Shown here: piece by piece, positions 3,074-37,020 of the stretch | How positions within the stretch are numbered: the stretch's first letter is position 1 | Layout: every line of letters begins with the position of its first letter | Assembly (NCBI GenBank): GCA_017540825.1 | Contig: JAFYAH010000008.1 | Location: forward strand, 1-44,967 | Length of the DNA stretch: 44,967 nt | Source: Candidatus Methanomethylophilaceae archaeon | Lineage (GTDB): Archaea; Thermoplasmatota; Thermoplasmata; Methanomassiliicoccales; Methanomethylophilaceae | Direction of reading: 5' to 3' | Notes under the pieces: model-generated | Seen by the model: only the letters and a program-made list of their open reading frames with translations | Database searches by the model: none | Told to the model about the DNA's origin: nothing | Position numbers and translations under genes: made by a program

Positions 3074-4414
3074 ATGTCTTCTTTCAGCAGCGGGGACCGC
3101 ATTCCATTGATGACTGGCGGCTATGCCAAGGTCGTCCGTGACGCTCCTCTGGGAAGCGGCGGACAGGGAGAGGTCTATCTCGTCGAGTACAAGGGCACCC
3201 AGCACGCTCTAAAGTGGTACACCTCGCTGAAGATGAGGACCAGCGTCGAGTTCAAGGAGAACATCAGGAAGAACGTCTATGACGGCGCTCCCAGCGAGAG
3301 GTTCGCATGGCCATTGGACGTCACCGAAGACGTAAACGGGAGCTTCGGTTACGTGATGCGCCTGCTTCCCAAGGACAACGAGGAGTTCAGCGACTTCCTC
3401 AGGACCTACAGGATCACCAAGACCGAGCCTCCGAGGAGAGTCCCTGTGAAGTTTGCCAGCTTCCCTTGTCTCATCAGGGCCGCCATCCAGGTGGTCGACT
3501 CGTTCGCAGCCCTCCACAGGGTCGGTAAGTCGTACCAGGACCTGAACGACGGCGGAATATCAATGGACATGTCCACCGGGGACATAATAATCTGCGACTG
3601 CGACAACATCGCCCCGGACAGGACCAATTTCGGCATCGCCGGGAAACAAGGCTACATGGCGCCGGAGATAGTCCTCGGTACCAAGACTCCCGACGTCTAC
3701 TCCGACAGGTTCTCGCTGGCGGTCATCCTTTTCAAGCTGTTCTTCCGCGACGACCCGTTCTGGGGCGCCAAGGTCTGCAAATGCTGCAACCTCACTGACT
3801 ACAACTACAGGAAGTACTACGGGGAGGAGCCCGTGTTCATCTATCATCCCACCGACAGCTCCAACCGCCCGGTGGAAGGCATCCATGACAACGTGATCAG
3901 GATGTGGGGCCGGTATCCCCAGTACCTCAAGGACCTCTTCACCAGGGCATTCGTGGACGGGCTCAAAGAGACCTCCAAGAGGCCTATAGAGATAGAATGG
4001 ATGTCGGCCCTCATCAGGCTCCGCTCTGAGTCGTTCATGTGCTCCTGCGGAGGGTTCTCCTTCGTTTCCGACGATGCGGAGAAGAGCGGCGAATGTACAT
4101 GCCCCAAATGCGGGAGGAGCTATCCGGTGCTGATGCTCGGCAAGACCCGCCTGCCTCTGGCCAAGGACGCGGTCGCGTACAGCTGCCAGACCCGCTTCGG
4201 ATCAGACGATTTCGAAAAGATCACGCTCAAGGTGGTTGAGAACCGCCTGAAACAGGGCCTTATGGGGCTCAAGAACCTGGACGACTGCGACTGGGAGGTG
4301 TTCCTCGACGGAACAAGGAAGTCCGTCCAGCCGGACAAGGGGACCGAGATCGTGCCCGGGATGAGAATAGAGTTCGACAGGAAGACATCTGGAACTGTGT
4401 TGAGGAGGAATTGA
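3074..4414 (+). CDS. Protein kinase with C-terminal zinc ribbon (TerY-P triad kinase)
   Basis: A 446-residue eukaryotic-type Ser/Thr kinase. Visible motifs: glycine loop LGSGGQGEV at residues 26-34, ATP-anchoring lysine in ALKWY (Lys47), catalytic loop YQDLNDGG with Asp156, metal-binding acidic strand ICDCDN (Asp175/Asp177) in place of DFG, and GYMAPEIV as the APE segment. The divergent DLNDGG/CDCDN loops are, as I recall, the form seen in kinases encoded next to TerY-type vWA proteins. After the kinase domain comes a four-cysteine zinc ribbon (CSCGG...CTCPKCG, about residues 355-385) and a beta-rich tail. The start is the ATG after the TATA box rather than the upstream frame extension, which is proline-rich and overlaps the divergent gene. 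It ends one base before the vWA ATG, with a GAGGAGG site inside its last codons, so translation is coupled. Confidence 0.88.
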   Translation: MSSFSSGDRIPLMTGGYAKVVRDAPLGSGGQGEVYLVEYKGTQHALKWYTSLKMRTSVEFKENIRKNVYDGAPSERFAWPLDVTEDVNGSFGYVMRLLPKDNEEFSDFLRTYRITKTEPPRRVPVKFASFPCLIRAAIQVVDSFAALHRVGKSYQDLNDGGISMDMSTGDIIICDCDNIAPDRTNFGIAGKQGYMAPEIVLGTKTPDVYSDRFSLAVILFKLFFRDDPFWGAKVCKCCNLTDYNYRKYYGEEPVFIYHPTDSSNRPVEGIHDNVIRMWGRYPQYLKDLFTRAFVDGLKETSKRPIEIEWMSALIRLRSESFMCSCGGFSFVSDDAEKSGECTCPKCGRSYPVLMLGKTRLPLAKDAVAYSCQTRFGSDDFEKITLKVVENRLKQGLMGLKNLDDCDWEVFLDGTRKSVQPDKGTEIVPGMRIEFDRKTSGTVLRRN

Positions 4415-21044: not shown

Positions 21045-22196
21045 TTACGAACCCCTTACTTTTCTGCTTTTCTTCCCTATAGTCGTCGATATAGCCATGG
21101 AAAGCGCCAGCGACAGTGCTATGGAGGCGGTCCCGAAGACCAGGCCCTCCGAGACGCTATCTATCGGTATGTAATTGCCTTCTATCGGGCGGAACAGCCC
21201 GGAGACCAGCTTCAGGAAGAACACGTGGAACATCATTATCGACAGGGAGAACGCCCCGAGCACCGAAAGCGCCCTTCCGGCCGAGGGCAGGGCCTTGGCG
21301 ATCCCCATGCAGAGCGCCATGAAGCAGAAAGCGCAGGCGAGGGTCCCGGGGACTATGAGGAACGACGAGAGCCCGCCGTGCCTGCCCAGGACCCCGTCCA
21401 CGAAGTTGAAGCCTATAGGGAAGACCGCGCTCCACACGATGCCGAACGCCAGGGCCAGAACGGCCATCGCCCAGAGCCTCCGCGTCCCCATCCCCTTCTC
21501 CATCCTGCCCAGGAAGTCCACTCTGGCCAGGCGGGCGCCCATGAGCATGACCGCGGCGGTGGCGAAGGCCGTCTCGCAGGCGAACGGGAGGTGCACCGGT
21601 AGCATCCCGATGAGCACGGCCGACGCGGCGCACAGCAGGGCCATGGCGACGGCGGTCTTGACGGCGCTGTCCGAGACCCTGTCCACCAGGGCGTAGAACG
21701 GGACGCACGCAGCCAGGAAGACTATGAAGAAGTAGTACGAGGTGGAGACGTTGCACGGCCCTATCACGTGGAGGTGTCCCGGTTCCTCGAGCGTCCTGTC
21801 GCCTATGAGGGAATGGAGCAGCTCGTCCAGAAACTCTTCGAAGGGGACGCTGGCGGAAGTGGCGCAGACGAACAGCCACATGGCGAACGTCAGGACGACC
21901 GTGCACACGACGAAGGCGGGGACTATCTGCACAATCCTGCGCGACACGTTCTCCCGGAAGGTGCGCCCGGGCTTGTGGAGGTACCCGGAGATCATGAAGA
22001 ACACGAAGAGCAGGGTGTACAGGAACTGGCCGAGGACGGCCACCGGGTCGGCGAGGAGCGAGCCCCCGTCAGGGACAGGCATGTCCTCGCCATGCACGAC
22101 GGCGTGCTCCATGGCATGGCAGAACACTATCGCCACGATGCAGATGCCCTTGGCTATGTCCAGGGAGCGGATCCTGCTGGTGGATGGGGCCGTCAT
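21045..22196 (-). CDS. Membrane acyltransferase (acyltransferase_3 / OafA-like)
   Basis: 383 residues with about ten hydrophobic segments. The N-terminal RIRSLDIAKGICIVAIVFCH (R-x-x-x-x-D-x-x-K-G and a histidine after the first helix) is the acyltransferase-3 signature, and LLFVFFMISGYLHKPGRTF is the second conserved loop (F-F-M-I-S-G-Y). These enzymes O-acetylate or acylate surface polysaccharides and lipids at the membrane. The ATG at 22196 is chosen because the frame upstream is arginine/glycine-rich and antisense in character, and because it lies 23 bases after the stop of the LRR gene; the two form an operon. Convergent with rpoK. The stop is TAA. Confidence 0.87.
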   Translation of the reverse strand: MTAPSTSRIRSLDIAKGICIVAIVFCHAMEHAVVHGEDMPVPDGGSLLADPVAVLGQFLYTLLFVFFMISGYLHKPGRTFRENVSRRIVQIVPAFVVCTVVLTFAMWLFVCATSASVPFEEFLDELLHSLIGDRTLEEPGHLHVIGPCNVSTSYYFFIVFLAACVPFYALVDRVSDSAVKTAVAMALLCAASAVLIGMLPVHLPFACETAFATAAVMLMGARLARVDFLGRMEKGMGTRRLWAMAVLALAFGIVWSAVFPIGFNFVDGVLGRHGGLSSFLIVPGTLACAFCFMALCMGIAKALPSAGRALSVLGAFSLSIMMFHVFFLKLVSGLFRPIEGNYIPIDSVSEGLVFGTASIALSLALSMAISTTIGKKSRKVRGS

Positions 22197-22219
22197 CCGC
22201 ACCCCATGCGCAGAGGCGT

Positions 22220-23068
22220 TTATAACAGCGACCCAGAGAAGCCCCTTCGGACCTGGCGCAGGTAGCAGTCCGACCCCTCGAACGAACGTCCGCAGAGGCT
22301 CTCGGGCAGCTGCTCCAGCGCGTCGCCGTCCCTGTCCAGGAACACGATGCCGTAGAAGGCGCCTCCGCCGAGGGACCGCAGACCGGACGGGATCGACGCC
22401 CTGGACAGCGATATGCAGTCCGAGAAGGCTCCTCCGCCAATCCGCCAGACGCTCTCCGGGAGGTCTATCGACTCGAGGGACATGCACTTGAAGAACGCCC
22501 AGTCGTCTATCTCCGCCACGCCTTCGCATATCTCCGCCTTCATCAGAGAGGCGCAGTCCGAGAAGGCCCCCTTCCCGACCGTCCCGACGCCGGAAGGGAC
22601 CCTGGCCTCCGCAAGGCTGGCGCATCCCGAGAACGCCCAGTCGCCGAGGAAGTCCAGGCTGTCCGGGATCCTGGCCGAGCCCAGGGAGAAGCAGTCCGAG
22701 AAGGCCTCCTCGCCGATGCACTCCAGCTCGCCGGGGAGGTCCAGGCGGCGCAGCGACAGGCAGCCGTAGAACGCCCTCCTGCCGACGAACCTGAGGCCGG
22801 AAGGCAGGAGCACCGACTCCAGCGCCGAGCACCCGCAGAAGGCGCCCTCGGCGATGTAGACGACGCTCTCCGGGAGCACGACGCAGGAGACGGGCATATC
22901 CTCGAAGGCGCCCCTGCCTATGCAGGACACCGGGAGCTCCTCCCCGCCTATCTCCACTCTCTCCGGTATCTCCGCCTCCCCGTCCGGGCAGCATCCCTTC
23001 ACGAGGGTCACCGCCCCGTCCTCGAGGGCGAACTCCATGCCCTCGGCCTCGGCCGTCTCCATGCCCAT
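22220..23068 (-). CDS. Cytoplasmic BspA-type LRR protein in operon with acyltransferase
   Basis: 282 residues without signal peptide. A short N-terminal strand module (MEFALEDGAVTLVKGCCPDG, EAEIPERVEIGGEELPVSCI) leads into nine or so LRR_5 units (GAFEDMPVSCVVLPESVVYI, RAFYGCLSLRRLDLPGELEC, WAFSGCASLAEARVPSGVGT and so on). It ends in the same terminal module as the other LRR proteins: AFYGIVFLDRDGDALEQL, then CGRSFEGSDCYLRQV. The start is fixed by GGAGGGGG eight bases upstream. The acyltransferase gene follows after 23 bases. The choloylglycine-hydrolase-like gene ends 17 bases upstream on the same strand, so all may share one transcript from the 24.5 kb promoter. Confidence 0.82.
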   Translation of the reverse strand: MGMETAEAEGMEFALEDGAVTLVKGCCPDGEAEIPERVEIGGEELPVSCIGRGAFEDMPVSCVVLPESVVYIAEGAFCGCSALESVLLPSGLRFVGRRAFYGCLSLRRLDLPGELECIGEEAFSDCFSLGSARIPDSLDFLGDWAFSGCASLAEARVPSGVGTVGKGAFSDCASLMKAEICEGVAEIDDWAFFKCMSLESIDLPESVWRIGGGAFSDCISLSRASIPSGLRSLGGGAFYGIVFLDRDGDALEQLPESLCGRSFEGSDCYLRQVRRGFSGSLL

Positions 23069-23085
23069 GCGATGCCCCCTCCTTA

Positions 23086-24159
23086 TTAATCCGCATCGCC
23101 TCGGAGGACGAAGGAGTGCCTCCGGCCGGTCTCGTTCGCTATGAGGTCCAAGGTTCCTTCCTCGATGTCGTACACCGAGCAGTGCCCCGTGTGCCACATG
23201 TCCACCACGCCCTTCCCGGCGAACCTAGCTATAGCGCGGTCTATGCGGGCCTCCATCCAGTCCTCCGCGGGCATGTCGACGGTGTAGTCCCCTTCGCCCT
23301 TGCGGGTGTAGTCGTTGTAGAACTCGCTGTACCAGAACGGCACCGTGGAGCGGTCGTACGTCCGGGAGTACCACGCCCTCCTGAGCGCGTCGAACATGCC
23401 GTCTCTGCCCTCTATCCCCGCGTAGGCGTCGGACAGCACCCTGTACCTCTCCAGCCCGTGGGAGTGGGGCTTGAGGTCCTTCCTCCCCGCCACCCCGGTG
23501 AGGTGGAAGTTGGACAGTATCCTGACGCCGTAGGTGACGCAGGTCCTCCCGCCTATGAACTCCACCACGGCCGAGCCTATGCCGTCCATCAGCATGTAGT
23601 GCATCTCGAAGCCGTCCATATGCCCTCTGGGAAGCGAGTGGACGTCCTTCTCTGACAGCAGCTCCACCGCCTCGTGGACGGATCCGGCGCGGTCCAGGAG
23701 GTAGCGGACGACCAGGGCCATGGACATCCTCTCCTTTCCAGGGTTGGAGGACTCCGTCTTGCCCCTGTCGCTCACCGTTATCCCGTTCACGCAGCAGGCG
23801 AAGCCCGCGTCGTTAACCCCGTCCATGGTCATGAAGGGCACGTAGGCGTACAGCTCCGAAGGCTCCCCGGAGTCCACGACCGAGGACGGGACCAGGGACG
23901 AGGACACCCCCAGGGTGGCATGGAAGCCGTCCCTGGCGGGGGTGTGGACGACGAAGTCCGCCTTGTCGCCGATCGCCCAGTCGTAGTTCCTTCCCAGGAG
24001 GCTCCCCTTGGAGACGGCGGAGCAGGAGGCTCCCCGGGGCGGGTTGGACGCGAAGTACCTCTCGGCCGCCGCATAGTCGTAGTCCCGGAACTACACCTCG
24101 TACAGGAGGTCGTCGACCTTGGTCACCGGTCCCATCAGGGGCGTCCTGCATCCGGTCAT
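23086..24159 (-). CDS. Choloylglycine-hydrolase-family (linear amide C-N hydrolase) protein with in-frame amber codon
   Basis: Reading through a TAG at 24091-24093 (codon 23) gives a 357-residue Ntn-hydrolase of the choloylglycine hydrolase / penicillin V acylase family. Before the amber: VTKVDDLLYEV; after it: FRDYDYAAAERYF, then PPRGASCSAVSKGSLLGRNYDW with the catalytic cysteine (Cys46) and the paired Arg57 and Asp60 of GRNYDW. Further on, FMTMDGVNDAGFACCVNG, SALVVRYLLDRAGSVHEAVE-like helices and a C-terminal IEEGTLDLIANETGR are typical of the family. The amber falls between two halves of a conserved N-terminal motif. Starting after it would need a non-ATG codon, and the nearest usual one (GTG 23907) loses the catalytic cysteine. 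The start at 24159 is an ATGA overlap with the upstream gene. In this pyrrolysine-using lineage the amber may be read as pyrrolysine; a nonsense mutation is the alternative. Likely substrates are N-acyl amides such as conjugated bile salts. Confidence 0.72.
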
Positions 24160-24497
24160 GCCCTTCTCGCTTCTCCCAGGGGCCTGTCCCAGAATATCTT
24201 CGCGTCGTGCTCCGAAGCGATCGAGTCGGCCTTCTCGCGGAAGCTGGAGAGGAGCTCCTCCTCCCTCTTCTTCGAGCGCCTTCCCGGAGCCTCGTACAGG
24301 TTCGTCTCCCAGCAGGCGTCGTACGACACGCGGAAGTCCTCCGGGTCCTCGTGAGGGAAGAAGCTCAGGGAGACGTAGTACTTTATGCGCCTGTCCCTTG
24401 ACTCGGCCACCAGGGCCGCCTTGACCGCGCGGCGGGGGACGCCGTTCGCCTCGCATTCCGCCTCGAAGTACTGCATGTAGACGTCAATAGGATCCAT
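24156..24497 (-). CDS. Small unknown protein, first gene of the amide hydrolase operon
   Basis: 113 residues from the ATG at 24497 (MDPIDVYMQYFEAECEANGV). It is mostly helical and charged (RRAVKAALVAESRDRRIKYY, a middle YVSLSFFPHEDPEDFRVSYD strand region, then KREEELLSSFREKADSIASE). I recognise no family. Its TGA overlaps the ATG of the amber-containing hydrolase gene (ATGA), so the two are coupled. An earlier in-frame ATG (24521) is possible but lies in the likely promoter. It could be a regulatory or chaperone-like partner; nothing shows this directly. Confidence 0.5.
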   Translation of the reverse strand: MDPIDVYMQYFEAECEANGVPRRAVKAALVAESRDRRIKYYVSLSFFPHEDPEDFRVSYDACWETNLYEAPGRRSKKREEELLSSFREKADSIASEHDAKIFWDRPLGEARRA

Positions 24498-24931
24498 GCG
24501 TCTGTATAACGCATGCCAGGACATTATTGTAGCGATTGGAGCCAGCGAGCCACCCTGAAGAACCCGGTCGCGTCCTGATAGCTTGGCTGATGTCTCCATG
24601 GCTAGCTCTTTAATGGCTCTATATGCAAATATGGATCACGACAGCGGACAACGTTCTAGTTCTTTGTACAAATAATTATAATTAAGTTATTACTGCAAAT
24701 TCACTCAATTATTTGATGCATATAAGTAAATAATGTACCTTATCTATCAAAATAATACTTTATTGATAATAGACGGAACAGAGCCTCCTTTAACATCTAT
24801 AATAGCGTTATTGGGAATTATTCATTTATTTATAACACCATAATTATATATAATATAATCAATCGCAACATGCCGTTTCATGCTCTTTCGAACATGGCGG
24901 CAAGGGGCGAAAGCCCTGAAGGAGGGTTTGA
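24498..24931 (+). promoter_or_regulatory. AT-rich control region of mtbC-mtbB
   Basis: This 430-base gap between divergent genes is strongly AT-rich from 24600. For mtbC, TTATATATAATATAA (24844-24858) is an excellent TATA element, predicting a leader of about 50 bases, and GAAGGAGGG (24918-24926) is the ribosome-binding site before ATG 24932. Further upstream TATCAA (24745-24750) and TTGATA (24763-24768) form a short inverted repeat that could bind a regulator, roughly 90 bases before the TATA box. Methylamine operons are substrate-induced in methanogens; the regulator is not visible here. Confidence 0.5.
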
Positions 24932-25576
24932 ATGGCATTCGAGAACGAGACTCAGAAACTACATGATGCGCTTGTTTCATGCAAAGTACCCGAAATCTCC
25001 AAAGCAGTCGACGAGGCCCACGCCGCTGGCATGCCAGCCACCGAGATAATCAACACCCTCGGCGGAAGCATGTCCGAGGTCGGTGTCCTGTTCGAGAGGG
25101 GGAAGCTCTTCCTGCCTCACGTACTGTCGGCCGCGGCAGGAATGAAGAAAGCGATGGAAGCTCTCAACGACGAGCTCTCCGCAGGGAACTCCGGCGGCGA
25201 CGTGAAGGCGTCCGCCGTCATGGGGACCGTCGAGGGCGACGTCCACGACATCGGCAAGTCGATCTGCTCCACCATGCTGCAGTGCGCCGGGTTTGACGTC
25301 CACGACCTCGGAAGGGACGTCCCTCTCGGGAAGTTCGTCGACGAGTGCAAGGCAGGATGCACGTTCTGCGGGATGTCCGCGCTCATGACCACCACCATGG
25401 TCCAGATGAAGACCGTCATAGACAACCTCAAGGAAGAGGGTATCCGCGACAAGGTCACCGTTATGGTGGGAGGCGCGCCCATCACCCAGGGATTCTGCGA
25501 CAAGATAGGCGCGGACATCTACGGAGAGTCCGCATCCGAGACCACAAGGAAGGCCCAGGACGTCCTCGGAGCCTGA
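24932..25576 (+). CDS. mtbC: Dimethylamine corrinoid protein MtbC
   Basis: 214 residues, normal length for methylamine corrinoid proteins. An N-terminal helical cap (about residues 1-85) is followed by the B12-binding Rossmann domain with the base-off/His-on motif GDVHDIGKS (His105 as the lower cobalt ligand), the [10 protein letters not shown] segment and the [10 protein letters not shown] loop. It carries the methyl group from dimethylamine, delivered by MtbB, to the CoM methyltransferase (MtbA), which is not in this window. The assignment to dimethylamine rather than mono- or trimethylamine rests on the partner gene mtbB 26 bases downstream. Cytoplasmic. Confidence 0.9.
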
Positions 25577-25602
25577 AACCGTTTTTTCTAAGAGGGAACA
25601 AA

Positions 25603-27006
25603 ATGACTGAGTACTACACTAGGATGGGAGACGGCCGCAGGGTGACGATGACCAAAGAGCAGGTCATGACCGACATCCAGGCCGGAACCGCGGACGCCGC
25701 AGACATGGCGGGAATCCCCGCGCTCGACGCGAACGACATCGAGCACATGTGCGAGATCGTCATCGACCAGAGCAGGGTCGTCGGGGTCGAGCCCGGGCAC
25801 GAGGTCGTCATGACCTACGACATCGGGCAGCTGGACTTCACCGGCGACAACGGGAACTCCGGGAACGGGGTCGACATGGGAAGGCTCGAAGCCGCGCTCC
25901 TTCATGAGAGGGCTCTCGGAGCCGACACCTTCGAGCTCTCGCACTCCGACTACTCGATCAAGCCCGTGAAGCCCGTCATCTCCATGGAGATGCAGGCGAT
26001 GGAGGAGATCCAGTCCGAGATCATAGCCCCGTACTTCTACGGCGCGATGCCCAACATGGGTCTCTACTACGCTCCTGACGGCCCTTACGGGAACCCTGCG
26101 GACCTCATGAGGGAGTTCAAGATCGACGAGTCCATGGCCTCCTCCGAGGCCGCCGCGGACCATCTCGCGAGGGACATCGAGTTCGTCACCACCAGGCTCC
26201 AGGCGGCCGGGTCCGACGGTTTCAACTTCGACACCACCGGGTCCGCAGGTGACGCCGACTTCGTCGGTACTCTGAACGGCGTGAGGATCCTCAGGGAGCA
26301 GTGCCCCGAGGCCTACATCAACGTCGGAGCCGCCGGAGAGTCCGTCATGGGGATCCACGGCATGATGGAGTTCGACGGAGAGATCGCCGCAGGCCTCTAC
26401 CCCCATCAGCAGTGCAAGCTCATCGCCAAGGCCGGAGCCAACGTCTTCGGAGCCGTGTGCAACACCAACACCTCCAGATCCCTCGCATGGAACCTCGGAA
26501 GGGCCGTCACCTTCATCAAGAAGGCCGTAGAGGACTCCCCCATACCCGTACACGTGGACATGGGGATGGGAGTCGGAGGGATACCCATGTTCGAGACCCC
26601 TCCCCTCGACGCGGTCGCCAGGTGCAACAAGGCCATGGTCGAGATCGCCAAAGTCGACGGCGTCTAGGTCGGGGTCGGGGACCCTCTCGGGATGGACATC
26701 CCCCACCTGGTGGCGTCCGGAATGGGCGGCATCAGGACCGCCGGAGACATGGTCGCCAGGATGATGTACGCCAAGAACATGAAGCTCGACGTGGCCAAGG
26801 AGTACGTCGCCAAGAAGCTCGGCGTCACCACGATGGACCTCGGCGACGAATGCGTCATGAGGGACCTCCGCGAGGAGCTCAAGATCGGGTCCGTCACCGG
26901 AATCCCCGGAGCGCCCCGCGGTATCCTCGCCAAGATGAACATCGAGGACATCCTCGACATCAAGATCAACAGCTGCGAGAAGTTCCGCGAGAAGCTCAGA
27001 AGATAA
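25603..27006 (+). CDS. mtbB: Dimethylamine methyltransferase MtbB with pyrrolysine (amber codon 355)
   Basis: The gene is interrupted by an in-frame TAG at 26665-26667 (codon 355) and continues in the same frame to TAA at 27004-27006, giving 467 residues. That length and amber position match Methanosarcina MtbB (467 residues, pyrrolysine about 356). Typical segments: [73 protein letters not shown] before the amber and [20 protein letters not shown] after it. The enzyme has a TIM-barrel fold in which pyrrolysine activates dimethylamine and passes a methyl group to Co(I)-MtbC. It lies 26 bases after mtbC, with a leader TTTTTTCTAAGAGGG containing a weak binding site. A hairpin terminator follows. 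The pyl genes needed to decode it are elsewhere. Confidence 0.95.
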
Positions 27007-27031
27007 ACAAAACCTCTCCAAACCTCTTTGC

Positions 27032-27072
27032 GGGTGGCGATCGGCCTTCGGTCGCCATCCTTTCTCCTCTTC
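27032..27072 (+). terminator. Terminator of mtbC-mtbB
   Basis: GGGTGGCGAT (27032-27041) pairs with GTCGCCATCC (27051-27060) through two G-T wobbles, with a 9-base loop, followed by TTTCTCCTCTTC. It starts 26 bases after the mtbB stop. Confidence 0.55.
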
Positions 27073-27126
27073 GACCGCAATAGGATTCGCATGGAACGTC
27101 CTTGCTCGGTGTTATGCCATAATTTG

Positions 27127-27172
27127 TAAAAAAACAGAAGAAGTTTGAGGACGGGCCCGCAGGTCCGCCCTC
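27127..27172 (-). terminator. Terminator of the APC permease gene
   Basis: On the minus strand, shortly after the permease stop at 27186, a GC-rich imperfect hairpin (27148-27172, GGGCGGAC pairing region with GTCC) is followed by a TTTTTTT run (complement of 27127-27133). Confidence 0.45.
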
Positions 27173-27185
27173 TTGAATGCGCACT

Positions 27186-28685
27186 TCACTCGTCCGCGAA
27201 GTTGATCCCGCATGACATCTCGGGATGATGCTTGTGGTTCCACCACTGGATGGCCATCCAGCAAGGCACGTAGGCGAACGTGGCCGCTATGCCCACGAAG
27301 ACGTACATCAGGCCCATGGTGATGTACACGTAGTAGAGCAGGCCCGGAATCATGAAGAAGAACTCGAAGATGGCCATGAACCATGCTCCGGCGTACCAGA
27401 AGCCTCCGACCCTGTAGACCCTCTCCACGTCCTTGAATCTGGGGTCCCTGCGGGACTTGATGAACGCGAGGCAGCACATCCCGAGGGCGATGGCGAATCC
27501 CAGCGCGGAAACGGCCAGGATCTGCGAGGCGGTGATCCCTGCGAGGATGATGACGAACCCGACGAAGGCCTCGAAGTACATGGCGTACATGGGGACCCCG
27601 TAGCTGTTGGTCTTGGAGAAGAGCAGGGGGAAGTTCCCGTCCTTGGCCATGATCTGGATGGTCCTGGCGGTCGCGAGGAAGGCGCTCTGGATGATCATGA
27701 CCATCCCGGCTATGAGCAGGAAGACGGCGATCAGCCCGCCGATGTCCCCGAAGTCGGACTTGGCGATGGGTATGAGGGTGGATGCTCCCGCCTCCTCGAT
27801 GCCGGCCTGGCCGAGGGTCCCGTACATGCAGAACGCAATGACGAAGTACATGAACAGGCACAGGAGGCCGCAGGCGGTCAGAGCCTTGGGGACGTCCTTC
27901 TCGGGCTGCTTGTACTCCGCGCCGTATGTGGCGGCGGACTCCCATCCGACGGCGCTCCACTGCGCGACGGTGAAACATCCGAGGATCATTAGGAGGGTGT
28001 CCCCGTCCCATGCCCAGGGGACCGTCTCGGTCAGATACCACGACTTGTTCTCCGGGATGAGCTCTCCGGTTATGTAGTCGAGGTTGAAGGTGCCGTTTAT
28101 CAGGGGCACCAGGCAAATGATCAGTATGGGAATGATGGTGATGGCCGCGAGGATGAGCTGAACTTTGGCGCCTCCCTCGAGCCCTTTGCGCCCTGTGATA
28201 ATGATGAACCCGTAGATGAGCGCACCGAGGAGGAGGTAGAACCCTGTGGCGGTGATCCCCTCGATGCCGAGCTCGAAGTAGTCGTTGATGTAGACACCGG
28301 TCATTATCGTGAAGATGGGGATGACCGGAACCCAGGTGGCGAAGTAGGCCCATGCTCCCAGAGACCCGATGACTCTGCCCGTGTTGATCTTCTTGTTCTT
28401 GTATTTCTCGTCGTCTCTGTAGATGTGCTGGATTGAGCCTCCGATACCTGCTACGCCGAAGGTGGCGCACATCTCTCCTAACGGGAGGTTGAGCAAGAAA
28501 CCAGAAAGGACGGAGAACACCCAGATGAGGATGCTCATGGCCCACAGGCTCAGGGAAAGATCGCACAGGGACGGGACGATCAGGATCGGGATTCCCATAG
28601 CGATGATGAGACCCTGCTTCCAGTCTATCGTCCTGAGAAGCTCGTAGGTACCGCCTTGGGTACCGCTGCTTTCTGCGTCTGCCAT
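27186..28685 (-). CDS. APC-superfamily permease, candidate methylamine importer
   Basis: 499 residues with about 12 hydrophobic helices, typical of amino acid-polyamine-organocation permeases (start MADAESSGTQGGTYELLRTI, then GIPILIVPSLCDLSLSLWAM, the conserved helix-1 like region, and internal WSAVGWESAATYGAEYKQPE, which resembles the APC helix-6 'F-x-G-x-E' motif). Similar permeases are encoded with methylamine methyltransferases in methanogens (mtmP/mttP/mtbP type), so dimethylamine or another methylated amine is the likely substrate; the sequence alone cannot prove it. The ATG at 28685 is preferred to 28820 because GAGGT lies just before it and AAATTTATACC (28740-28750) is a suitable TATA box. 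It converges on mtbB. Confidence 0.78.
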   Translation of the reverse strand: MADAESSGTQGGTYELLRTIDWKQGLIIAMGIPILIVPSLCDLSLSLWAMSILIWVFSVLSGFLLNLPLGEMCATFGVAGIGGSIQHIYRDDEKYKNKKINTGRVIGSLGAWAYFATWVPVIPIFTIMTGVYINDYFELGIEGITATGFYLLLGALIYGFIIITGRKGLEGGAKVQLILAAITIIPILIICLVPLINGTFNLDYITGELIPENKSWYLTETVPWAWDGDTLLMILGCFTVAQWSAVGWESAATYGAEYKQPEKDVPKALTACGLLCLFMYFVIAFCMYGTLGQAGIEEAGASTLIPIAKSDFGDIGGLIAVFLLIAGMVMIIQSAFLATARTIQIMAKDGNFPLLFSKTNSYGVPMYAMYFEAFVGFVIILAGITASQILAVSALGFAIALGMCCLAFIKSRRDPRFKDVERVYRVGGFWYAGAWFMAIFEFFFMIPGLLYYVYITMGLMYVFVGIAATFAYVPCWMAIQWWNHKHHPEMSCGINFADE

Positions 28686-28976
28686 TTGGTGACCTCTTCG
28701 CAAAGTGTTTCCACTGATGCTTAAAGGGGCATTGCAACATGGTATAAATTTGTTGACGTGTAAATGAAAATATTGACCAAACATGGTTTTATCGTCTATC
28801 AAAGTGGCCCATACAGCCATGTCCTGTTCGCCGAGACCCTTGACGTCGGCCAGCGCAGGAAGGGAGGCGGCGCGGGCCCCCCGCTACCCCAATTAGTTAT
28901 AGCCAGAAGGCGATACATCGCGCAGAGGCGCCCGGCCCTCGACATGGCGCATGGGCGTCCGATGCGAGGAATTCTC
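28686..28976. promoter_or_regulatory. Divergent intergenic region, permease / LRR surface protein
   Basis: The 291 bases carry a TATA box for the permease on the minus strand (AAATTTATACC, 28740-28750) and a TTAGTTATAG element at 28893-28902 that could serve the LRR gene on the plus strand, giving a leader of about 50 bases. A short GC hairpin (GCGGG/CCCGC around 28875-28887) lies before it. The plus-strand frame is open through most of the region but has no sign of protein coding. Confidence 0.4.
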
Positions 28977-34164: not shown

Positions 34165-35940
34165 TTAGCAGCCTTCCGACACCGCCAGCCGACTGGCAAG
34201 GGGATTGATGCCAATAAGTACGAACCCGTACGATCCCCACATGTGCAGACCAATGCCCTTGATAGCAGGAACGCGTATTCCCTGCTCGGCTCGACAACAG
34301 CGCCCTTCGCCTCTGGTAATCGTCCTATAGGAGACGAACACGTCGGTCTGGCGGGTGGAGACGCCGTACAGGTGGACCTCGCCCCGCAGGCCCTCGTAGT
34401 AGCGCAGCCTCTCTATCTGGCCCAGGGCGCCTTCGGCCGACGCCCTCATCCCGCCGTCGTCGGTCCCCGGGGGCTCGTCCTTCAGCTCTATGACCGCGGA
34501 CGGGCCCCTACCGTCGCGCGGAACCACGGCTATGTCGGCGTACCCCTTGCCGCCGCGGTACTCCGACCTAACGTAGTAGTCCGAGACGAGGCAGTTGAGG
34601 AGCCCCAGCATGAAGGCCTGGTAGTGCCTCTCGTCCCTTGTCACCTTGCCGTCGACGCTGGAGCCCAGCGCCCCCGAGAGCTCCTGTCCGAGATCCTCGG
34701 GCCGGCCCTCGAGTATCGCCCTCGCGACCCTGTTCATGCGGGAAGCCCTCCAGCGGCCGGACACCAGCTGCTCCAGGAGACCGCTCCTCACCTCCTTGTT
34801 GACCAGCCTGAGCGTCCACAGGCCGTTCCTGGGGCCCTCGGCCTTGAGGTATCCGGAGCCGGTGAGGAGGGAAAGCAGGCCTTCCATGCTGCCCAGGTCG
34901 GCGAATATGAGATTCATGCTCATCGGCGTCTCGACGAAGCCGTCGTTGTACAGGTCGGAGACGATCCTGAGTGCGTCCGGGCCGTTCATGCTAACGGACT
35001 CCAGTATCATGGACGGGTTCCCCTCGTTTATCCAGTACGTGTCGGCCACGAACCCCCTGCTGACGTAGTTCAGTATGCTCCAGGGGTTGTACACCTCCGC
35101 GTCCCCGAAGCGGTAGCCGTCGTACCACTCCCTGACCTCGCCCAGCCTGTCCGGGCGCCCGCAGTCCTCCAGGATCCTTGTGACTTCCGATTCGGTGAAC
35201 CCGAACGACTCGTCGAAGTCCCGGCTGAATATGTTGTTGGCGTACAGGTTGTTCAGCCCGGAGAATATGCTCTCCTTGGCCACCTGCATAACTCCGGTCA
35301 CGACGCCGAACAGCAGGTGCTCGTTGCTCTTGAGAGCGTTGGTCAGCAGCCCTCTTACGAATTGGACGATCTTCTTGTGCGAGGACTTGCCGTAGGAGCT
35401 GTTTATGGCGCTGTCGTACTCGTCTATTAAGACTATAGTCTTTCTGCCATGGTACGATTCCAGAGCCTCTGTCAGATCTTTTATGGACCTCTTCATGAGA
35501 GCCTCTGTAGAGCTTCCCGACTTGAGCTCGCTGAGCTTGCCGGCCATCTCGCTTCTGGACTCGAAGAGATATCCGAACTTTCTGCAAAGCTCGTGGGTGA
35601 TCTCTCTGAAGTCGTTTATGAAATCTTCATAAGTGTCGGTTTCGAGGCCTTTGAGAGAGACCATGACAACCGGGAATCTGTTCATCATCTCCACAGACGC
35701 CCTGTCGGACATCACTTCCAGCCCTTCGAACCATCTGCGCCCGTCGTACTGCAGGTTGAAGAATGCGTCGATCATGCTGAGGTTCAGGCTCTTTCCGAAC
35801 CTGCGGGGCCGGGTGAACAGGAACGCGCCGGTGCTCCTCCTGGACACTATCTCCGCGATGAGCGCGGTCTTGTCCACGTAGTAGCCGCCGTTATCGCGGA
35901 TGCTCTTGAAATCGTCGTTCCCGATCGGAAGGTCCCGCAT
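34165..35940 (-). CDS. AAA-ATPase-like protein with C-terminal PD-(D/E)XK nuclease domain
   Basis: 591 residues of the AAA-ATPase-like (PF09820) plus PD-(D/E)XK (PF08011/DUF1703) family, common as multi-copy genes in gut anaerobes and archaea. Start MRDLPIGNDDFKSIRDNGGY followed by YVDKT is the standard opening. Walker A is FTRPRRFGKSLNLSM, Walker B TIVLIDEYDSAI. The middle contains FSGLNNLYANNIFSRDFDES and YNPWSILNYVSRG. The nuclease core is SEYRGGKGYADIAVV with the later Glu-Leu-Lys of SAVIELKDEPP (D-x19-E-x-K). The last 30 residues after VFVSYRTITRG look less conserved and may be an extension. Its role is unknown; a mobile or defence-linked function has been suggested for the family. A start at GTG 35961 is possible. 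A perfect inverted repeat lies upstream (35973-35994). Confidence 0.85.
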   Translation of the reverse strand: MRDLPIGNDDFKSIRDNGGYYVDKTALIAEIVSRRSTGAFLFTRPRRFGKSLNLSMIDAFFNLQYDGRRWFEGLEVMSDRASVEMMNRFPVVMVSLKGLETDTYEDFINDFREITHELCRKFGYLFESRSEMAGKLSELKSGSSTEALMKRSIKDLTEALESYHGRKTIVLIDEYDSAINSSYGKSSHKKIVQFVRGLLTNALKSNEHLLFGVVTGVMQVAKESIFSGLNNLYANNIFSRDFDESFGFTESEVTRILEDCGRPDRLGEVREWYDGYRFGDAEVYNPWSILNYVSRGFVADTYWINEGNPSMILESVSMNGPDALRIVSDLYNDGFVETPMSMNLIFADLGSMEGLLSLLTGSGYLKAEGPRNGLWTLRLVNKEVRSGLLEQLVSGRWRASRMNRVARAILEGRPEDLGQELSGALGSSVDGKVTRDERHYQAFMLGLLNCLVSDYYVRSEYRGGKGYADIAVVPRDGRGPSAVIELKDEPPGTDDGGMRASAEGALGQIERLRYYEGLRGEVHLYGVSTRQTDVFVSYRTITRGEGRCCRAEQGIRVPAIKGIGLHMWGSYGFVLIGINPLASRLAVSEGC

Positions 35941-35972
35941 GGCTATGCCGACGCCTTCCACGATGATAGAAC

Positions 35973-35994
35973 TATCTGTCTGTTTCGACAGATA
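35973..35994. promoter_or_regulatory. Perfect 8-6-8 inverted repeat
   Basis: TATCTGTC (35973-35980) and its exact reverse complement GACAGATA (35987-35994) flank a 6-base spacer, between the BASS transporter stop and the AAA-ATPase start. No T-run follows on the minus strand, so it looks more like an operator or RNA hairpin than a terminator. Confidence 0.4.
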
Positions 35995-36015
35995 CGGCTT
36001 TCCAGCAATCGAATT

Positions 36016-37020
36016 CTATGGATAGAACCAGCTCAGGCTCTGGAGCGACGAGCGACGAGCGAGCCCTTCTCGTTCCGAGCTGCGGCCGAGCCCTCGTTCC
36101 TCCCCTTTCCTAGCGAAGAAACCCGCCAGAATCGCTCCAGAGATGTTGTGCCATACGCTGAATATTGCCCCAGGGACGGTGGCCATCGCGAGTGAAGGGA
36201 ACGAGGTGGCCGCCAGGGACGTCGCCAGACCGGAGTTCTGCATGCCCACCTCGATAGACAGCGTCCTCCGTCTGGCTCCTTCCATGCCGGCGAGGACGGA
36301 GATTCCGTATCCAGCGGCGTATCCTGTCAGGTTATGGAGGATGACCACTGCGAAAACCGTGGCACCGCAGCTCACTATACGGTCCACCGAGTGGGATATC
36401 ACGCACATCACGATGAGAGCGATGGCCGCCACAGAGATCAGCGGAAGCACCCCCGAAGCCCTGTCGGTGACCTCCGGGCGCAGGTATGTGATCGCGAAGC
36501 CCAGCACCAGCGGCGCCAGCACGACCTTGACCATCGACAGGAACATCCCGGCGGTGTCCACGTCTACAGACTCGTTGAGCGCCAGAAACACGAGGAAAGG
36601 AGTGACCAGAGGGGCCAGAAGGGTGTTCACTGCTGTCATCCCCACCGAAAGGGCCACGTCCCCCTTCGCGAAGTAGCTGATCACGTTGCTGGCGGTGCCG
36701 CCTGGGCAGCATCCCACCAGGATCACGCCAGCCATCAACCCTGCCTCCAGCCCAAAAGCGACCGACAGGGCGTAGGCGACGAGGGGCATGACGGTGAACT
36801 GGGCGATGCAGCCTATCAAGACGTCTCTCGGACGGGTGAAGACCACCTTGAAATCGGACAGCTTTATGGTCAGCCCCATGCCGAACATGACGATCATCAG
36901 GAGATAGTCTATCCAGCCGGTGCTTATCCATAGGCCAGTATCGGGAATCAGGAATGCCAGGAGGGCGGCTGCCAGAACGATCATCGCCATGTAGCGTCCG
37001 ACAGGCTTCGCGATATCCAT
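36016..37020 (-). CDS. BASS-family transporter (bile acid:sodium symporter type)
   Basis: 334 residues, about nine or ten membrane helices. Diagnostic segments: MIVMFGMGLTIKLSDFK (helix 2 and the family's G-M-G-L-T), VGCCPGGTASNVISYFAKGD (sodium-site crossover), GMTAVNTLLAPLVTPF, and IEVGMQNSGLATSLAA (second crossover, E-x-G-x-Q-N-x-x-L-A). Substrates of bacterial and archaeal members include organic anions such as pantoate or 2-keto acids; bile acids are not implied. The start follows a TATA element GATTAATAAAG (37041-37051) by about 25 bases. The stop is TAG, uncommon here, and read-through would stay open in the same frame into the AAA-ATPase gene. The C-terminal 30 residues are Arg/Ser-rich and cytoplasmic. 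Confidence 0.88.
   Translation of the reverse strand: MDIAKPVGRYMAMIVLAAALLAFLIPDTGLWISTGWIDYLLMIVMFGMGLTIKLSDFKVVFTRPRDVLIGCIAQFTVMPLVAYALSVAFGLEAGLMAGVILVGCCPGGTASNVISYFAKGDVALSVGMTAVNTLLAPLVTPFLVFLALNESVDVDTAGMFLSMVKVVLAPLVLGFAITYLRPEVTDRASGVLPLISVAAIALIVMCVISHSVDRIVSCGATVFAVVILHNLTGYAAGYGISVLAGMEGARRRTLSIEVGMQNSGLATSLAATSFPSLAMATVPGAIFSVWHNISGAILAGFFARKGEERGLGRSSEREGLARRSSLQSLSWFYP

Follow-up and report, generated by a model that had tools for sequence, protein, structure and literature searches.

An in-frame amber codon, very probably read as pyrrolysine, in an Ntn hydrolase gene of a Candidatus Methanomethylophilaceae archaeon

The analysed window, a stretch of 44,967 nucleotides from contig JAFYAH010000008.1 of a Candidatus Methanomethylophilaceae archaeon, contains a gene which very probably encodes an intact Ntn hydrolase of the AAT/C45-CBAH clan with its codon 23, a TAG, read as pyrrolysine, in a lineage where TAG seems to be broadly a sense codon. 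The initial annotation had proposed pyrrolysine at this position, in an enzyme that has nothing to do with methylamine transfer, and this remains the most likely reading given the pyrrolysine cassette of the genome, the lack of decay in the gene and the TAG-specific interruptions found elsewhere. The gene would offer a clean and testable case for TAG as an ordinary pyrrolysine sense codon in some gut methanogens.

The hydrolase reading frame and its product

The frame is located on the minus strand and starts at an ATG (24159-24157) which forms an ATGA overlap with the TGA that ends the upstream gene (24156-24599), shows 22 codons before the TAG (24091-24093) and 334 codons after it, and ends at a TAA (23088-23086). 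The TAG at codon 23 is the sole stop inside the 357-residue frame, and this frame alone shows a coding-like signal on either side of it. Read across the amber, the sequence KVDDLLYE...RDYDY...ERYF..NPP...SCSAVSKG.LLGRNYDW can be aligned to five orthologs of 69-87% identity with no gap, in agreement with the earlier view that its two sides belong together, and both Cys46 and the motif G56-R-N-Y-D-W61 are present. The coordinates, the ATGA start, the TAG, the 334-codon continuation, Cys46 and GRNYDW were all right as first given, and so was the recognition of the GTG at 23907 as the first usual start after the amber, which lies beyond Cys46, so that the nucleophile would be lost. Furthermore, no in-frame NTG (ATG, GTG, TTG or CTG) is found between the amber and Cys46 (codons 24-46). 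The features of the region are listed in Table 1.

Table 1. Features of the hydrolase region, in window coordinates.
Feature	Position	Strand	Remarks
Ntn hydrolase gene with one in-frame TAG	23086..24159	-	357 aa; frame, Pfam/NCBIfam, orthologs
In-frame amber codon TAG, codon 23	24091..24093	-	sequence and ortholog comparison
Cys46 (TGC), predicted nucleophile and predicted autoproteolytic N-terminus	24022..24024	-	
First ATG/GTG/TTG after the amber (GTG)	23905..23907	-	start there would lose Cys46
Upstream gene, 147 aa	24156..24599	-	stop overlaps hydrolase start (ATGA)
Corrinoid (B12-binding) protein gene, mtbC-like	24932..25576	+	divergent from the hydrolase unit
Open frame containing mtbB (dimethylamine methyltransferase)	25345..27006	+	canonical Pyl TAG at 26665
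PYLIS_2 (RF02509)	26665..26764	+	begins at mtbB amber; positive control; E=1e-12
Amino acid permease gene	27186..28820	-	directly upstream of the hydrolase in other species
Downstream gene, 683 aa, repeat region and Acyl_transf_3 domain	21045..23096	-	follows the hydrolase in relatives too

According to Pfam, the protein matches AAT (PF03417; E 2e-7, score 31.4, over the gathering cut-off of 23.2) and CBAH (PF02275; E 2.6e-4, score 21.1, over the gathering cut-off of 20.4). The best model is C45_proenzyme of NCBIfam, with an E value of 4.5e-14 and 52.5 bits, below the 85-bit cut-off of this subfamily. Judged from its sequence, the product is an Ntn hydrolase or acyltransferase of the AAT/C45-CBAH clan. 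The solved structures matched by sequence, if weakly, are choloylglycine hydrolases, with E values of about 1e-5 for the single sequence and 3e-8 for the profile. The family name first given to the product, choloylglycine hydrolase, holds at the clan level and fails as a specific name, since AAT and C45_proenzyme outscore CBAH; it is used as a clan name only, because the substrate cannot be predicted from sequence.

Gut Methanomassiliicoccales are known to have choloylglycine hydrolase genes (PMC10804542). The protein shares with choloylglycine hydrolase, penicillin V acylase and AAT (C45, C59) the Cys nucleophile, the GRNxDx motif and the positions of the active-site Asn and Arg, but differs from them in its low similarity and in a segment of 45 residues before the Cys. 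In bile salt hydrolases proper, the Cys is found at precursor position 2, whereas here it is residue 46. Residues C46, R57, D60, N125, N217, and R238 are identical in all six genomes with the hydrolase gene, and we take them to have the active-site roles of Ntn enzymes, from what is known of the C45 and C59 families. Related Ntn hydrolases (C45) mature by autoproteolysis before the catalytic Cys; if the same cleavage takes place before Cys46, pyrrolysine would remain with the pro-segment and be absent from the catalytic chain. An AlphaFold2 model of the hydrolase, built from four sequences, had a pLDDT of 33 and was discarded.

Orthologs and chromosomal neighbourhood

The hydrolase gene was found in six of the 31 genomes of the genus. 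One genome per species was compared, so the codon-23 TAG could be strain-specific, and three of the ortholog-bearing assemblies are MAGs, one of them from sheep omasum. Codon 23 of the five congeneric orthologs is ACC, TCC, TCA, CGC, and CGC (Thr, Ser, Ser, Arg, and Arg), which makes it a variable site, and the wider search of the 31 genomes showed no second genome with TAG there. Alignment of relatives at this codon had been suggested earlier: a conserved TAG was not seen (0 of 5, all sense), and the window copy showed no other inactivating change. Furthermore, the ortholog of genome G002 shows an in-frame TAG of its own at alignment column 157, the codons of the others there being CGC, CAT, AAT, AAT, and CAC (Arg, His, Asn, Asn, and His). 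Two of the six orthologs therefore carry TAG at different tolerant sites, in genes which are otherwise intact.

Against the ortholog of the nearest species, G018, the window copy has a dN/dS of 0.11 over the whole gene and of 0.099 for the part after the amber, similar to those of the pairs G026-G029 (0.08) and G001-G002 (0.11). Across the 195 positions which are invariant in the four intact orthologs, the window copy shows three changes, all of them conservative, and the polarised changes, amino-acid versus silent, are 7 versus 23 on the window branch and 9 versus 12 on the G018 branch. By these sequence comparisons an old pseudogene is excluded; with a dS of about 0.9 to the nearest species, a nonsense change of very recent date would not have left any other mark. 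In G001 and G002 (L005 and L006), the hydrolase frame runs stop-free from an upstream, putatively MazG-like sequence, possibly a fusion, and this continuation suggests that the segment before Cys46 is tolerant of change.

In the other species, the hydrolase gene directly follows the permease gene, and in the closest of them it is itself followed by the repeat-plus-acyltransferase gene. Only in this genome is a block of mtbC, mtbB and the 147-aa gene (approximately 24136-27197), the last one with no Pfam match, found between permease and hydrolase; in G018, mtbCB is located in the pyl cluster. As a consequence of this insertion the hydrolase unit is divergent from mtbCB here, which leaves room for regulation shared between both. 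In an Rfam search, the mtbB element was the only PYLIS match, and none was found at the hydrolase amber; likewise, no unusual or stable RNA fold was found after this amber (z=+0.89). Because it has no PYLIS match and no conserved TAG, the hydrolase amber does not appear to be a special recoding site.

Pyrrolysine machinery and TAG inside other genes

That pyrrolysine is encoded here, as previously stated, is borne out by tRNA-Pyl (L026:15328-15398), pylS (G000:C68:15595-16233, over cut-off), pylD (TIGR03911, over cut-off), two consecutive frames located between pylS and pylD and assigned by position and sequence to pylB and pylC, and the mtbB with TAG in the window. The tRNA-Pyl, pylS, pylB, pylC, and pylD form one cluster, adjoining an amber-containing mtmB-like gene. 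The pylD frame (L026:18461-19999, G000:C68) shows no usual stop and continues for about 230 codons; the stop is present in G018, and its lack here reflects either stop loss or an assembly error.

Internal stops were defined as stop codons whose two flanks were coding-like in their own frame alone and which had no new ATG up to eight codons away. This coding-frame filter replaced a first homology test for stops, as shadow frames of coding DNA also align. In a 376-kb sample of this genome, about 16% of the whole assembly and with a conjugation gene on one of its contigs, 13 of 1338 TAG, 5 of 2116 TGA, and 0 of 579 TAA were internal (TAG versus TGA and TAA, 5 of 2695, p=8e-4). The nearest species (591 kb) shows 12 of 1972 for TAG versus 3 of 4637 for TGA and TAA (two TGA and one TAA, p=8e-5).

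A single-copy gene encoding an RPA-like ssDNA-binding protein (L031:11550-13550, G000:C1, minus strand) shows TAG as its codon 463, which falls within an OB-fold domain; this codon is AAG (Lys) in G018, G001, and G006, and the proteins align full length. An MgsA/RarA-like AAA+ gene (L033:789-2273, plus strand) also shows TAG, at codon 466, within the MgsA_C domain match. In the reverse direction, three genes of G018 carry TAG at positions that are Ser or Tyr in this genome, and one of these genes is in the window near 3800. Undamaged genes thus swap TAG and sense codons between species, which a sense role of TAG would predict. In the pyl cluster of G018, a nitroreductase-like gene (L084, around 18718) shows TAG, and this genome has Ser. 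The L040 contig (G000:C30) contains at least four in-frame TAGs, two of which are carried by a TraG/TraD-like conjugation gene.

Under the standard code, TAG is the end of 24 of the 266 called genes, approximately half of them with a coding-like extension and the others without it. TAG plausibly ends some genes, such as that of the SBF transporter (36016), and the reading of TAG may therefore be incomplete. The frame of 951 aa at 34165-37020 of the window (minus strand), with SBF/bass-family and AAA-ATPase/PD-DEXK_9 parts and the TAG at 36016, was set aside as an amber-interrupted gene, because the SBF orthologs stop some 15-20 residues short of the TAG and the ATPase belongs to a separate multicopy family. 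The SBF gene continues in frame past this TAG into the AAA-ATPase/PD-DEXK_9, and an always-read TAG would give a fusion of the whole length.

Readings of the amber codon and related systems

We infer both the decoding, in which tRNA-Pyl charged by PylS would read the hydrolase TAG as pyrrolysine, and the efficiency of this reading over termination. If TAG is broadly sense, point mutations to TAG at tolerant positions would be nearly neutral, and they would be species-specific and found in assorted genes. The simplest account is that the hydrolase amber would be a near-neutral passenger of general UAG decoding. A recent nonsense mutation, by which the hydrolase would be a young pseudogene, or the TAG would mostly terminate and only a 22-residue peptide would be made, agrees with the sense codon at position 23 in five of five orthologs and with a gene that, being present in only 6 of 31 genus genomes, is dispensable. 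However, it is unlikely in view of the lack of other damage, the low dN/dS and the intact conserved residues, the independent TAG of the G002 ortholog, the presence of tRNA-Pyl and pylS, and the recurrence of TAG, not TGA or TAA, within other genes including the single-copy RPA. We consider very unlikely a one-base sequencing or assembly error in the metagenome-assembled genome: random errors would also make TGA and TAA, whereas two independent assemblies show an excess of TAG only, and the conserved context around the hydrolase amber is clean, although the source behaves as a draft assembly of 73 contigs, the relatives are rumen MAGs and pylD seems to be without a normal stop here.

The initial annotation had also raised the idea that the amber may tie hydrolase output to the supply of pyrrolysine (methylamine). 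The divergent block of mtbC and mtbB with the ATGA-coupled gene, placed between permease and hydrolase in this species only, could aid such control, and the amber is early in the gene, ahead of the nucleophile, so that termination yields no enzyme. A specific coupling of this kind found no support and is very unlikely: the TAG is unconserved, the hydrolases of relatives have no amber at codon 23, the amber lacks both the PYLIS match seen at mtbB (E=1e-12) and an unusual fold (z=+0.89), and TAG is also found in RPA, the mgsA-like gene and other housekeeping genes, for which this kind of control is hardly plausible. A more elaborate form, in which UAG would act as a supply sensor, with transcription shared with the mtbCB region, full-length product only when Pyl-tRNA is abundant and pyrrolysine lost with the pro-segment, has very little probability too.

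Reading of the hydrolase TAG as an ordinary sense codon has precedents. In 'Ca. Methanomethylophilus alvus', of the same archaeal order and likewise with in-frame TAG in assorted genes, 16 non-methyltransferase Pyl proteins were predicted, half of them with amber-free homologs; the genes with in-frame TAG include cas1, mtxX, and that of a Sel1 protein, and TAG is a rare terminator (1.6%) (Borrel et al. 2014, PMC4153887). These authors proposed that constitutive Pyl decoding makes an in-frame TAG a stable mutation (PMC4153887). Table 7 of the same work (PMC4153887) is without an Ntn hydrolase, and the present genome belongs to another species. The hydrolase is an addition to the already predicted use of TAG in ordinary genes of relatives; what goes beyond the 'Ca. 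M. alvus' set here is the codon-by-codon comparison of orthologs, the TGA/TAA control and the amber in the single-copy RPA.

MtmB, MtbB, and MttB have an in-frame TAG read by the same Pyl machinery, and mtbB is located about 1 kb from the hydrolase; however, their TAG is a conserved, catalytic codon with PYLIS-type conserved sequence after it, whereas that of the hydrolase is unconserved, in a variable N-terminal site and without PYLIS. In the archaea with a 'Pyl code', reportedly described with proteomic support by Kivenson, Borrel, Banfield and colleagues in Science in 2025, all TAG is said to be pyrrolysine. The present genome resembles this genome-wide sense TAG in that TAG is internal in many unrelated genes, exceeding TGA and TAA, but some TAGs still resemble gene ends here, so that the reassignment may not be full. 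Genes of this kind are broken up or missed by standard gene callers, the hydrolase losing everything up to and including its nucleophile and RPA its last third, and surveys of hydrolases and core genes in these archaea consequently undercount them. If the RPA amber is read, this species would depend on pyrrolysine for replicating its DNA as well as for growth on methylamines.
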